Positions 19,481-25,449 of a DNA stretch of 43,693 nucleotides are shown here, piece after piece. This stretch comes from Spirochaetaceae bacterium (GTDB lineage Bacteria; Spirochaetota; Spirochaetia; Treponematales; Treponemataceae): the NCBI GenBank assembly GCA_017936345.1, contig JAGBFT010000016.1, forward strand, positions 1-43,693, in the 5' to 3' direction. The notes below the pieces were generated by a model. It saw only the letters and a program-made list of their open reading frames with translations. It searched no databases and was not told the origin of the DNA. The translations under genes and the position numbers were made by a program. Position 1 is the first letter of the stretch. The number at the start of each line of letters is the position of its first letter.

Positions 19481-22400
19481 TTACAAGGGACTTGTCTGAG
19501 TCATAACCTCAACGGTGCAAGCCGCGGTAGAAAAATTTATCTGCTCTTCCAAAAGTACAATTTTTTCATTAATGCTTTCTATTTCAGCTTGCAGCACCTC
19601 ACGTCGGGAACCATAGCCAGAGGCAACAAGCTGCTTTTTTTGGGCAACCTGGGACTGAGCCGTCTGAATCTTTAGCTGCTGATAATGAATTTTTAACCGA
19701 GCCATCGTCATTGCATTGATTTGGCGGGAAAGCTCCAGTTTGATGGAGGAACGGGCCTGTTCAATATCAAGTTCTGCACTCTTCAACTGGGATGCACTAC
19801 GTTTTAACTGGTTTATTTTTTTTCCCCCATCCCATATGGTAGTTTTTAACCCCAGAGAAATGTTGGCTACCAAGTCTGATTTGACCTCACCCTCCCCTTT
19901 GAATAGTTTTTCCATGTCTCCATTAAAACCAAAGGTCACCTGCAAGGCAATATCTGGCTTGCCATAAATATTTCCAGAGGCAAGCCTTTTGCTGTACTCT
20001 GCCACATCGTAGAGTTTTTCTAAAATGGCAAGGGATTCTTGGGCTGGATTTAGGGCGAGGTTTTCTAGGGTGGAAGAATCTTGCTGGGCTAAAATCATAA
20101 AGTCTTCCTGAAAGCCTGCAATTTCTGGGAGATGGAGTATTTGAGAAACTTCAAGCTGTGGCAGCCCTGTTAATTCCCGCAGGTCTTGGAGAACAAGGTT
20201 TTTATTGTGGCTGACTTGCTCAAAACTCAGGGGAACAAGGGCTTGTTGGGTTTTTGCCTCCAGCACATCCTGCTCCAGAAGGACTCCTTGCTGGTGGGCT
20301 GCCACCGTGAGATTTACCAATTCCTGGGTATAATTTTCCTGTTGAAGCAATAATTCTTCTATCTGGGAAAGATATACAAGGGCTAAAACTTGTGCTTTTA
20401 AGGAAGCCTGCCTTTGTTTTTTTATGGATGAAAGCTCCAGCTGCCGTACCTCTTCCACTGCGGAATAAATCCTTACACTGTTGGTAATTTTTCCCCAGGT
20501 AAAGACTGGTTGTTGTAAATCAAGCTGAAAGCTATAACCAAGTCTAGGCATTCCATCAAAAACCTTTAAATCTTCGTTCGGAATGGGAACCGATATTAGA
20601 GAACTGGTGGCGGGATTAATTATGGGAATAGAACCAAATTCACCCCTAGACAAGGAGATTTCCTTAATGAGGGGATTAGCCGTGTAGCTGCCTGCCAGAG
20701 TCAGGTCAATAGTGGGATGATAGCCCGCCCTGGCATCCTTTGTATCCAGCTGAGCCTGGATGAGGTTTTCACGAGCCTGTTTTAAATCCAAATTGTTTAA
20801 TTCCAAGGCAAGCAGCAAGTCGCTAAAAGAATGGGGAGAAGTCTCCGGTACTGGAAGTTTCTCCAAGGCAACCGCCTGAGGATTTACTTGAGGGACTTCC
20901 TGAGCAAGATTCTGAGAAGGGTCACTCTGGCTTCCCCCACCATCCATTGGTGCACCATCTTCAGTCCCAGAATTATTTTGGGCAAAACCGATCTGGGGAA
21001 TCAAAAGAAATAAGAGGGGAATAAAAATCACCATGCAGGAGGATGCGGCTCTTTTTTTCTTCTTTTTTGTCAGCACACGCAATTCCGTAACATAATACAA
21101 AACCGGAATAATAAACAGGGTAATCAAGGTGGAGGTAAGCAAGCCTCCTGCAATAGCCTGACCTAGGGGTGCATAGATTTCAGAGCCTTCGCCCTTGGCA
21201 AGAGCCATTGGCACAACACCCAGCATGGTAGTAAGGGTTGTCATAAAAATTGGACGAAGGCGACTGGCAGAGCCTCTAACGACACAATGGCGGAGCTCTT
21301 CTTCTGTTTCAACCCCTTCCTTTGAGCTATCTTCGCCATCAAGCTTTGACACAGAACGTTTGCGCAATAAGTTGATATAGTCCACCAGAATAATTCCATT
21401 GTTCACAACAACTCCTCCCAAGGAAATAACACCTAGCAGGGCTACCAGACTCATGCTGGAGCCAAACATTAAAAGCCCCAACACAACACCTATGAGACAA
21501 AAGGGTATAGTAGCCATAACAATCAGTGGCTGGCGGAATCGTTGGAATTGCAGCACCATTACGGTATAAACTAAAAACCAAGCAATGGCCAGGGCTGTAA
21601 TGATGGCAGGGAGGGAGTCTCCTATCAACTCTGCAACACCGCCAGCCTGGGTTGAAATTCCTGGTGACATGGGATTTTCCCTTAACCATTGCTGTGTCCT
21701 GCTATCTACTCCAGCTGTATTTTCAGATACAAGGGTGGCAGACACTGTTATTGTTTTTGCACGGTTTGTATGGTTAATTTGGGAGATACTTTGCTCACGC
21801 TGTATTTCACTGATATTTGAAAGGGAAACAGGAATTCCTGCAGAAGAAATAATTTTGATGGAGTTAAAGTCATCCAGGGTAATAGCTGCATCTGTCTTAT
21901 CGGAATAAAGACGAATATTATACCTGTCATCACCGGATCTAAACCGACCTATATCCATTCCTTGGAATAAAATGGCACTAGTAATCCCTGCCTCATAACT
22001 TGTAATTCCCAAGGAACTCATATATTCATGGACAATATCTATGGTCAAGGAATTGGTATCAAAATTAGTGTCCATTTCTACACTCACAACCTCCCTATCC
22101 TGCTGGAGATAATCGGCATAGGAGGAAGCTGTGGCGTGGAGGGTATTGATATCTTCACCCACAAAGGTAAGGCCATAACCACCACCGTCGGAAACGTAAC
22201 CCAGCAATTTATCAAAGCCACCATTTGAAACCTTTGCACTGACTCCAGGAATTGAGCCAGAAATTATCTGCTGGCACTGTAAAATTATTTCATGTATAGA
22301 ACGATTTCTTTCTGCCACGGGAACTAGAACCACGTGAATATATCCCTCATTACTGACACCTTGATTAGTACCCACAGATTCTGACAACCCCACAAAGAAA

Positions 22401-24256
22401 ACTGCATTCTGGATTTCCGGCACCGTTTCGTACAATAAATCTGCCACCCTCTCCATTTGTGAATTTGTTTTTTCAAGGGGATAGCCACCAGGAAATTTTA
22501 GATTTATATAATAATCGCTATTGTCGGTGGAGGGAATAAAGGCTAATCCAAGAGAACCAAGTACCAAAATGGTGGCTGCCAATACAACTATAGCCAGGAA
22601 AATGATAAATCTCCAAGAAGCAAGGCTCCAGTCCAGCATTTTTCGATACTTTGACTCTATAGATTCCATAACCCTATCTACACCCATTTTCATGGCAAGA
22701 AGGGGCTGTTTTTTGGTGGTAGATTGCCCTTTACCGCTATCCTGGGAGAGGTTTCCAGCGTTTTCTGGTTTTAGCAGGAGTTTCATCAAAAATGGCACAA
22801 TGACTACAGCTGATAACAATGAGGCTGTAAGAGCCATTATGAGGGTAAGAGATACATCCTTTAAAATCATTCCCACTACCCCAGTCAGGGCTGCTATGGG
22901 AACAAAAACCACTACAGTTGTTGCAGTACTTGCAAAAATGGATAACCCGACCTCATCCGCACCCAACAGGATTGCAGCTTCCGGGTTGGCTCTATGGCGT
23001 GGATTGTTATAATGGCGGAACACCTGCTCAATCATAACAATGGAGCCGTCCACAACCATACCCAGAGCCACAACCATACCAGAAAGACTCATTAGGTTAA
23101 CTGTAACCCCTGTAAGCTTCATTGCAATGAAGGTAAAAAGCAGAGAAAGGGGAATAGACAGGGCTATAATCATGGTTGCCCGTAGATTTCCTAAAAACAG
23201 GAAGATTACAAGAACTGCCATGATAATTCCACCAATTCCAGACATAATTACAGTTTTCATAGAGGCTGTAACAATACGACTATCATCGCTGATTATGTTA
23301 TACTCCAGGGCTCCCCCGCTTTCTTCCTCACTTTGAGCCAAAACCTCCTTGATTTCAGAGGCAATTCCCAGGGTATTTCCATCGCTCCGTTTCATTACCT
23401 CCACCAGAATCAGGGGATTATATCCGTCGGTAACATAGTGGTCTTGAGGTGGATAGGACAGGCTTATATCAGCTACATCCTGGAGGCGAATAACCACATT
23501 ATCAGAGGTACTGCCTACTGGAAGCTGACGAATATCCTCTAGACTCGTCAATTCCCCTCTATAACGGATGGCAACCTCTTCTCCCTCATAAATGGCAGTA
23601 CCAGCCGGGAGAAATTGATTGCTATACTGGAGAATCTGGTATACAGCAAGGGCAGAAATTGAACGAGCCTCCAGCTGTTCCAGATTGAGCTTGATATTTA
23701 CCTGTAATTTCTGGTCACCGGAGACTTGGACATTTGACACTCCACTAATGGCTGTTAAACGGGGACGAAGGGTGTCATAAATATAGTCTGTAATAGCACC
23801 AGCTTCTTCTTGAGAGCTACTACGTACAGAAAAGGAAAAAATGGGAAGCATTTCAGCTCCACCAACAAAAACTTCCGGTGTCCCCTGCAAACCAGAAGGC
23901 AAATCCACCATGAGTTTATTGATTCTATCTCGTACCTCAGTAATTCTATCGTAGGGGTCAACCCCATCTCTAAAGGTTATTTCTACAGTGCTGACAGAAT
24001 TGGCAGATGAGCTAGATACGGATTTAAAATCTGGCAAGGTAACAAAATTATCTTCTAAAACTGTGGTGAGGTCTTCTTCCACATCCTCTGCGTCTGCTCC
24101 AGGATAAATGGAAACTACTATAATGGATGGAGCTGAAACATCTCCCATAAACTCCACATTGATGGAGGACAGAGAAAAAACACCAAAAACCCCCAGCACA
24201 ATGAGGAGCATTCCAATTATAACAGGGTGACTAACAGAAAAATGAGACAACCTCAC
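19481..24256 (-). CDS. RND efflux pump fused in frame to a TolC-like outer membrane protein
   Basis: One ORF of 1591 residues. Residues 1 to about 1060 are a complete HAE1/AcrB-type RND pump: N-terminal HFSVSHPVIIGMLLIVLG, PGADAEDVEE, the TM4 segment GMVVALGMVVDGSIVMIEQ with one proton-relay Asp, two six-helix halves and two periplasmic porter regions, ending PVLYYVTELRVLTKKKKKR. A 17-residue hydrophobic segment ending IPQIGFA then looks like a signal peptide. After a Gly/Ser/Pro linker comes a full TolC-type OEP of about 460 residues (SFSDLLLALELNNLDLKQAR, KSDLVANISLGLKTTIWDGG). The preferred start is GTG at 24256: GGGAG lies 8 nt upstream and it overlaps the adaptor stop (TAGTG); a TTG at 24271 would add five residues. 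Fusion or frameshift is discussed in the findings. Confidence 0.9.
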   Translation of the reverse strand: MRLSHFSVSHPVIIGMLLIVLGVFGVFSLSSINVEFMGDVSAPSIIVVSIYPGADAEDVEEDLTTVLEDNFVTLPDFKSVSSSSANSVSTVEITFRDGVDPYDRITEVRDRINKLMVDLPSGLQGTPEVFVGGAEMLPIFSFSVRSSSQEEAGAITDYIYDTLRPRLTAISGVSNVQVSGDQKLQVNIKLNLEQLEARSISALAVYQILQYSNQFLPAGTAIYEGEEVAIRYRGELTSLEDIRQLPVGSTSDNVVIRLQDVADISLSYPPQDHYVTDGYNPLILVEVMKRSDGNTLGIASEIKEVLAQSEEESGGALEYNIISDDSRIVTASMKTVIMSGIGGIIMAVLVIFLFLGNLRATMIIALSIPLSLLFTFIAMKLTGVTVNLMSLSGMVVALGMVVDGSIVMIEQVFRHYNNPRHRANPEAAILLGADEVGLSIFASTATTVVVFVPIAALTGVVGMILKDVSLTLIMALTASLLSAVVIVPFLMKLLLKPENAGNLSQDSGKGQSTTKKQPLLAMKMGVDRVMESIESKYRKMLDWSLASWRFIIFLAIVVLAATILVLGSLGLAFIPSTDNSDYYINLKFPGGYPLEKTNSQMERVADLLYETVPEIQNAVFFVGLSESVGTNQGVSNEGYIHVVLVPVAERNRSIHEIILQCQQIISGSIPGVSAKVSNGGFDKLLGYVSDGGGYGLTFVGEDINTLHATASSYADYLQQDREVVSVEMDTNFDTNSLTIDIVHEYMSSLGITSYEAGITSAILFQGMDIGRFRSGDDRYNIRLYSDKTDAAITLDDFNSIKIISSAGIPVSLSNISEIQREQSISQINHTNRAKTITVSATLVSENTAGVDSRTQQWLRENPMSPGISTQAGGVAELIGDSLPAIITALAIAWFLVYTVMVLQFQRFRQPLIVMATIPFCLIGVVLGLLMFGSSMSLVALLGVISLGGVVVNNGIILVDYINLLRKRSVSKLDGEDSSKEGVETEEELRHCVVRGSASRLRPIFMTTLTTMLGVVPMALAKGEGSEIYAPLGQAIAGGLLTSTLITLFIIPVLYYVTELRVLTKKKKKRAASSCMVIFIPLLFLLIPQIGFAQNNSGTEDGAPMDGGGSQSDPSQNLAQEVPQVNPQAVALEKLPVPETSPHSFSDLLLALELNNLDLKQARENLIQAQLDTKDARAGYHPTIDLTLAGSYTANPLIKEISLSRGEFGSIPIINPATSSLISVPIPNEDLKVFDGMPRLGYSFQLDLQQPVFTWGKITNSVRIYSAVEEVRQLELSSIKKQRQASLKAQVLALVYLSQIEELLLQQENYTQELVNLTVAAHQQGVLLEQDVLEAKTQQALVPLSFEQVSHNKNLVLQDLRELTGLPQLEVSQILHLPEIAGFQEDFMILAQQDSSTLENLALNPAQESLAILEKLYDVAEYSKRLASGNIYGKPDIALQVTFGFNGDMEKLFKGEGEVKSDLVANISLGLKTTIWDGGKKINQLKRSASQLKSAELDIEQARSSIKLELSRQINAMTMARLKIHYQQLKIQTAQSQVAQKKQLVASGYGSRREVLQAEIESINEKIVLLEEQINFSTAACTVEVMTQTSPL

Positions 24257-25401
24257 TATTGATTCTCCCAATCAAGTTCCAAAAAATGTCCCACCACTGA
24301 TTGACCTGGAAGAATCTTTTCGTGCCCTTCCACAACAAAGGTTGCGTATCTATATTCATCAGGAACTACAATCCACTGATTGTCAGAAAGAGAATCCACA
24401 AGAGTCAAGCTGTCAACAGTTCCCCGTATGCCATCACCCCCTGTCATAGATTCGTTGCCTGTAACGATGATTTTTTCATCGTCATTTCCAGCATTTTCCC
24501 CCTCAAAATAGAATGCTGTGCCATCGCTTTTAACGGCAGTAATGGGAAGAAGGGCTACGTTTTCTTTTATACTGAATATAATTTTTACCCGTACAAACAT
24601 ACCAGGACTAAGGTTTTCACTTCCCTCTTCCAGATTAAAAACAGCTTCAAAGGTTTTGGAAGCCCCGTCAATATAGGGTGCAAGGGTGTCAAGTTTTCCA
24701 TAGGCAATTTTATCCTGTAACTGGGGTAAAGAGATTTGTGCCTGTATTCTATCTTTATGTTGTGAGAAATAAGAAAAATATTTTTCAGGAACCCGAAGAC
24801 GCACCACTAAATCCTGTAAATCAGCTATCACAGCAACTGGCTGGGGGGCTGCCGCAACACTCCCGGTAGACAGGGGGGCTGTTAACACAGTTCCTTCTAT
24901 AGGGGAAGACACACTGGCATATCCAAGCTGTAACACAGCCAAGTCGTACTGAGCCCTTGCTGCATCCCGTTGAGCCTTCACTGTATCGTATTCCTGACGG
25001 CTTGCAGCTCCTCCCTGATACAAGGCCTCCACTCGCTTAAAGCTACTTTCGTAACCGGTATAAGCTGCCTGGGCCTGTAACACTTGCTGCCGAAAGGGTT
25101 CCGGGTCAATTTGGGCTAGAATTTGCCCCGCTTTTACCTTTTCTCCAGCTCGGGCAGGATAATCTACAATGGTTCCGCTTACCAAGGGAATTACTGGTAT
25201 CATGGAACGGGTTTCTATATGTCCATTTATTGTGATGGATTCTTCCATTGTTCCACTAACAGGCTGGGCAAGTGTAACTGCTGCCAAGGGAACTGAGTAG
25301 GAAAAGGTTTCCTTTGTGGAAATAATTTTTACTCCAAAAACTATACCAAAGGCAAGGGCAACAACTACAAAATATTTTGCAATACCTCGTTTTTTCTTCA
25401 T
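24256..25401 (-). CDS. RND periplasmic adaptor (HlyD/AcrA-type membrane fusion protein)
   Basis: A 381-residue membrane fusion protein that links the RND pump to the outer-membrane channel. It has an N-terminal membrane anchor (residues about 8-27, AKYFVVVALAFGIVFGVKII), a first half of the lipoyl domain (VSGTIVDYPARAGEKVKAGQ), an alpha-hairpin (QVLQAQAAYTGYESSFKRVE to RAQYDLAVLQL), the second lipoyl half (VSSPIEGTVLTAPLSTG), then beta-barrel and membrane-proximal domains. There is no lipobox. It is first in the operon, with a good promoter and GGAAGG upstream of its ATG, and its stop overlaps the pump start by one base. No regulator gene lies beside it. Confidence 0.94.
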   Translation of the reverse strand: MKKKRGIAKYFVVVALAFGIVFGVKIISTKETFSYSVPLAAVTLAQPVSGTMEESITINGHIETRSMIPVIPLVSGTIVDYPARAGEKVKAGQILAQIDPEPFRQQVLQAQAAYTGYESSFKRVEALYQGGAASRQEYDTVKAQRDAARAQYDLAVLQLGYASVSSPIEGTVLTAPLSTGSVAAAPQPVAVIADLQDLVVRLRVPEKYFSYFSQHKDRIQAQISLPQLQDKIAYGKLDTLAPYIDGASKTFEAVFNLEEGSENLSPGMFVRVKIIFSIKENVALLPITAVKSDGTAFYFEGENAGNDDEKIIVTGNESMTGGDGIRGTVDSLTLVDSLSDNQWIVVPDEYRYATFVVEGHEKILPGQSVVGHFLELDWENQ

Positions 25402-25419: not shown

Positions 25420-25449
25420 AATATAATTACTAAGACAAAAAACTGTCAA
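25420..25449 (-). promoter_or_regulatory. Promoter for the efflux operon
   Basis: On the minus strand, a perfect TTGACA (25449-25444) and TATATT (25425-25420) are separated by 18 nt. The start would be near 25413, leaving a leader of about 12 nt that contains GGAAGG. No clear operator is seen, so expression may be constitutive. Confidence 0.7.

Follow-up and report, generated by a model that had tools for sequence, protein, structure and literature searches.

The window (the whole stretch of 43,693 nucleotides that was analysed) contains a single gene encoding an RND pump that continues in the same frame into a TolC-type outer-membrane channel. With a probability of about three in four, its product is a polyprotein that is cut by signal peptidase I, yielding a pump with 13 helices and a free channel. 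This mechanism, which had been proposed in an earlier note on this DNA, is the best available one. The window genome is a metagenome-assembled genome of a Treponemataceae genus (1.8 Mb, 75% complete, 135 contigs).

Positions 19481-24271(-) form a single open frame of 1596 codons counted from the first TTG. The GTG codon at 24256 shares a base with the stop codon of the adaptor gene (TAGTG) and aligns with the ATG or GTG starts of relatives. By this comparison it is the likely start of the fused gene, with a product of 1591 aa, and the coordinates 19481-24256 given in the earlier note are correct. The uninterrupted RND-OEP frame described there was borne out by the open frame, by its Pfam domains and by nine further genomes. 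The features of this region are:

25420..25449, minus strand: promoter-like site TTGACA-18-TATATT upstream of the adaptor gene (consensus scan, 11/12 matches)
24256..25401, minus strand: periplasmic adaptor (RND_mfp / HlyD family) of 381 aa (TIGR01730 with 156 bits vs a cut-off of 94.9; HlyD_D23, HlyD_3)
19481..24256, minus strand: fused pump-channel gene, 1591 aa, with a GTG start overlapping the adaptor stop
21089..24247, minus strand: RND pump domain (ACR_tran) of the 12-TM type, nearest solved structure MdtB
21050..21067, minus strand: basic stretch KKKKKR, n-region of the putative internal signal peptide, cytoplasmic by the positive-inside rule
20981..21037, minus strand: hydrophobic core and c-region CMVIFIPLLFLLIPQIGFA with GFA|QN as putative site, predicted to become TM helix 13 of the mature pump
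20834..20980, minus strand: flexible linker of 49 residues (AF2 pLDDT <50 over most of its length)
19484..20833, minus strand: outer-membrane channel with OEP/TolC fold (Pfam OEP; AF2; Foldseek)

The fused protein thus consists of the RND pump, KKKKKR, a hydrophobic stretch ending in IPQIGFA, the 49-residue linker, and the OEP channel. The adaptor gene lies directly upstream, which supports the proposal of a tripartite pump made from two genes. The promoter-like site, located after a tRNA-Leu gene, is the top-scoring one of the region, as a sequence match only and no sign of function. Together with the convergent orientation of the genes downstream of the fused gene, it makes adaptor and fused gene look like a two-gene unit. 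Elsewhere in the window genome, two RND pump genes lie in tandem (G000:C75 39319-43906). The genome also has at least two more RND pumps as well as separate OEP genes, so the fused channel is not the sole TolC-type protein there.

The pump part matches Pfam ACR_tran at residues 9-1061 with 701 bits (numbering from TTG), and the profile is covered nearly end to end (2-1019 of 1021), as in a full-length domain. The cut-offs of the curated NCBIfam subfamilies were not reached, the best being RND_permease_2 with 587 bits vs 1250, and the HME model gave 403 bits vs a cut-off of 701. By these profile scores, the pump is closer to HAE than to HME and lies outside the named subfamilies. The AcrB-type proton relay, consisting of two Asp in TM4 and a Lys in TM10, is absent from the pump: TM4 reads VDG where MdtB has VDD, placing Gly at the position of AcrB D408, and the TM10 Lys of MdtB is replaced by Asn. 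Proton coupling must therefore differ from the textbook AcrB relay. The same replacements are found in relatives such as L128. Within the fused clade, dN/dS of the pump part is 0.07-0.11. The C terminus of RND pumps is cytoplasmic.

The nine further genomes carrying the same pump-channel frame are separate assemblies, and one copy is split across two contigs. The ten carriers, among them Treponema sp. RGIG7474 and Candidatus Treponema excrementipullorum, belong to two Treponemataceae genera of the gut Treponema group. In the window genus, eight of ten genomes have the fusion and the other two are without this pump; the second genus contributes two genomes. Elsewhere among 274 family, 394 order, and 393 phylum genomes, this pump family showed no further fusions, and the unfused pump is present in about 60 other genomes of the family. 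Maximum-likelihood analysis of 50 pumps placed the fused ones in a single clade (SH-aLRT 100) with one change of state, and at the level of this tree a single origin of the Treponemataceae fusion is shown. The earlier note had suggested searching related genomes for the fusion and had regarded a frameshift, with separate pump and channel genes in all close relatives, as the outcome that would speak against it. The search led to the fusion in both genera, and that outcome was not encountered.

In sister genera and further relatives, the adaptor gene is followed by those for the pump, for a lipoprotein of ~400 aa, and for the channel, usually with overlapping ends. In the sister Treponemataceae operon (G020 L043, G035 L042, and the g4 genus), adaptor, pump, and channel are orthologous and in the same order, the pumps being 50-59% and the channels 31-38% identical to the fused protein. 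In contrast to the fused clade, pump and channel are separate genes there, with the lipoprotein gene between them. The channels closest to the fused channel part are those of the same sister genera. A profile search, which readily found the lipoprotein in three controls, found it in none of the ten fused genomes. Judged from these gene orders, the lipoprotein gene and the intervening stop codons were probably lost, which joined the channel in frame to the pump with the channel's signal peptide kept.

The lipoprotein between pump and channel genes of spirochaete RND operons (L042 3156-4373(-), L043 3197-4438(-), L133 2770-4128(-)) has the lipobox ...SC|SSVF and no Pfam match, and its family is undescribed. 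Its AF2 model predicts Ig-like beta-sandwich domains in tandem, similar to Gram-positive pilins. The TolC-binding lipoprotein YbjP (PMC13095208) was considered as a counterpart. This was unsupported, as the model matched beta-sandwich domains of pilin type and YbjP was absent from the 50 matches listed.

The junction of the window reads ...YYVTELRVLTKKKKKRAASSCMVIFIPLLFLLIPQIGFA|QNNSG..., with a putative cut at A1097|Q1098 (numbering from TTG). The hydrophobic stretch after KKKKKR had been interpreted as an internal signal peptide, and the corresponding anatomy is found in all relatives: each of the 10 junctions, including that of the tenth copy in G008, has a net positive n-region, a 13-residue hydrophobic core with a mean hydropathy of 2.0-3.2, and, immediately ahead of Q/E, a small residue. 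A composite rule of basic n-region, hydrophobic core, and small-residue site matched once per fused protein, always at the junction (9/9 fused proteins), and neither in 32 unfused pumps nor in the fused pumps' own twelve helices; having been devised after the junctions were seen, it demonstrates specificity and is not an unbiased test. The motif small-x-small|Q/E follows the core in 9/9 cases, compared with an expectation of 3.8 from shuffled sequences (P 0.0003). In L036 and L014 the -1 position is occupied by Thr, an unusual residue there. Instead of its own cleavable signal peptide at the N terminus, the fused channel has this internal segment, and the separate channels of the sister genera carry an ordinary N-terminal signal peptide that aligns with it. 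With dN/dS values of 0.15-0.39, which rest on 34-39 codons, codon comparison indicates that the junction is under purifying selection. Genes of the signal peptidase I family are present in the window genome.

Alternatively, translation could start internally near the junction and yield the channel as a separate product, the fused frame being a by-product. ATG and GTG codons do occur near the segment in the window, and an unrelated pump-lipoprotein fusion of two other spirochaetes (G550 and G554, see below) keeps a ribosome-binding site and an ATG. However, no start codon is conserved across the junctions. Three of nine members (L036, L008, L014) have no ATG, GTG, or TTG from TM12 to the core, starts being possible in the others, and there is no convincing Shine-Dalgarno sequence except for a weak one in L037. 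The junction codons, moreover, remain open and under selection. Internal initiation is therefore unlikely, and cleavage of the polyprotein is preferred.

The distance from the putative site to the channel varies among the fused proteins: it comprises 49 residues in the window, ~52 in L038, ~9 in L036, 7 in L014, and 3 in L039/L040. The two membranes bridged by MexAB-OprM are separated by 23 nm, with the RND pump accounting for 7 nm and the OMF for 10 nm (PMC4754349). This leaves ~13 nm from the inner membrane to the tip of the channel (23 minus 10; PMC4754349). The possibility that the protein stays uncut and spans the envelope as a tethered pump-channel chain would be compatible with the linkers of the window and L038 if these are stretched, and the 49 residues of the window could bridge the gap only if nearly straight. 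With 3 or 7 residues, however, an uncut chain could not reach the outer membrane, and the ~9 residues of L036 likewise stand against such a gap. As the signal-peptidase-like sites are also conserved, a permanent tether appears improbable, even more so than internal initiation.

Pfam OEP was detected in two stretches from residue 1155 (101 bits, numbering from TTG), and both repeat copies are above the cut-off. The AF2 model of the channel part has four main strands and long helices (pLDDT 80). Its best Foldseek matches are all OMFs, including TolC, VceC, CmeC, and OprJ, with TM to target mostly 0.67-0.86. By its modelled fold, the channel part is a complete OMF. Apart from the unusual architecture, nothing suggests that it is non-functional or never exits the cytoplasm. 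This is very improbable in view of the OMF fold, the conserved signal segment, and dN/dS values of 0.09-0.19 where not saturated.

Programmed frameshifting in the lysine stretch, which would produce the pump alone in addition to the fusion, could take place at the heptamer A_AAA_AAG, which is in the right phase in the window. Since this heptamer occurs in only two of the 10 junctions and frame -1 continues for ~30 codons to a stop, frameshifting is scarcely to be expected. A frameshift or missing stop introduced by sequencing or assembly, as might be suspected from the fragmented, incomplete genome and the run of A at the junction, is ruled out for practical purposes by the open fusion in ten genomes, nine of them other assemblies, with differing junctions, one clade, and purifying selection.

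Cleavage of the polyprotein is likely given the short linkers compared with the intermembrane gap, the lack of a conserved start, the signal peptidase I genes, and the complete OMF fold. In the proposed mechanism, the RND pump would insert co-translationally with its 12 helices, its C terminus ending in the cytoplasm. The K/R-rich stretch and the hydrophobic segment would then act as an internal signal peptide in N-in/C-out orientation, i.e. as a 13th TM helix, and restart the Sec-dependent export of the channel part. The cut by signal peptidase I would fall just behind the small-residue site (in the window, GFA|QN), so that the pump would retain the signal segment as an extra helix. The released channel would enter the Bam pathway and trimerise in the outer membrane. 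Pump, channel, and the translationally coupled adaptor would assemble into an ordinary tripartite efflux system from two genes. In this scheme, the cut itself, its timing, one-to-one amounts of pump and channel, the insertion into the outer membrane, and the substrates are inferred.

Other candidate fusions were found in spirochaetes. In G550 and G554, which belong to another spirochaete family, a pump is fused in frame to the lipoprotein (L128 1235-5470(+), L129 1037-5167(+)), with the lipobox LVGC|S inside and the start signals mentioned above retained. This is a second, separate internal-signal fusion, perhaps for signal peptidase II. Apparent pump-channel fusions in G552, G497, and G507 (frames of 1701-1737 aa) were rejected, as translation shows several stop codons between the domains. 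Similarly, in the long adaptor-pump frames of G089, G275, G263, and G208, a stop codon separates adaptor and pump. G050 has adaptor and pump in one 1397-aa frame (L053 4758-8951(-)) with a garbled adaptor end, which is probably due to a frameshift at this end and not a true fusion.

Fusions of the same general architecture are present in Bacteroidota, where many CusA/CzcA proteins of ~1,440-1,480 aa have a C-terminal channel (OEP) and are annotated only as CusA/CzcA. They were reached by a plasmid search with a Bacteroides TolC query; a plasmid search with the window's own channel part gave no match. The first example was the plasmid protein WP_044000500.1 of Hymenobacter swuensis, with 1482 aa and an OEP domain. 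In each of 43 plasmid records, one place covers at least 80% of this protein, mostly but not always as a single frame, from Cytophagia, Saprospiria, Flavobacteriia, Bacteroidia, and others. In Hymenobacter sp. BRD128 (L151) the same region is split into overlapping pump and TolC genes. The fusions compared are:

L144 1575-6023(+) and L146-L150: Bacteroidota CusA/CzcA-OEP fusions

A hydrophobic core is present at all six junctions and a small-x-small|Q site at most of them, with weaker basic stretches. With a relaxed charge threshold, the composite rule picked up the junction in three of the six, along with other matches. As in the Treponemataceae fusion, an RND pump and a C-terminal OEP are encoded in one frame with a hydrophobic segment between them. 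In contrast, the Bacteroidota proteins belong to the heavy-metal RND family, have the adaptor gene downstream, and possess a less basic n-region. As heavy-metal pumps from another phylum, they indicate that such fusions arose at least twice. A convergent assembly strategy is somewhat more probable than not: in no fewer than two phyla and two RND families, the channel would form the C-terminal end of the pump polypeptide until signal peptidase releases it at an internal signal peptide. The pump would be left with 13 helices, and both parts would be available one-to-one at the same place and time.

The earlier note knew of no described RND-OMF polyprotein. This still holds for the literature, where a search that was thin on subscription journals retrieved no paper describing the Treponemataceae or Bacteroidota fusion, but not for the sequence databases, which contain the Bacteroidota proteins. 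A survey of outer-membrane pore families describes fusions of such proteins as rare and, in its relevant passages, names none with an RND pump (PMC4827864).

That such fusions evolved independently in Treponemataceae and Bacteroidota points to a selective benefit, and a pump-channel polyprotein would be a natural way to couple the production of both components. An outer-membrane protein located behind twelve TM helices further suggests that outer-membrane biogenesis can make use of an internal signal peptide. Natural pump-channel fusions may be usable for assembly studies, and annotation pipelines hide channels within proteins named only RND permeases.

In the standard account, the three proteins of a tripartite pump are made separately, with the channel being exported and inserted on its own. 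The fusion is a variant of such a pump and not a new kind of system, albeit one that is surprising to the specialist. Adaptor and fusion represent the same three component families as MexAB-OprM and AcrAB-TolC, in which, unlike in the fusion, these are three separate polypeptides and the channel has its own N-terminal signal peptide. A polytopic membrane protein that is followed by an exported protein and split from it at an internal signal peptide is known from FbcH, the cytochrome b/c1 precursor of Bradyrhizobium japonicum. FbcH, in contrast to the pump-channel fusion, belongs to a respiratory complex, and its product stays in the inner membrane.
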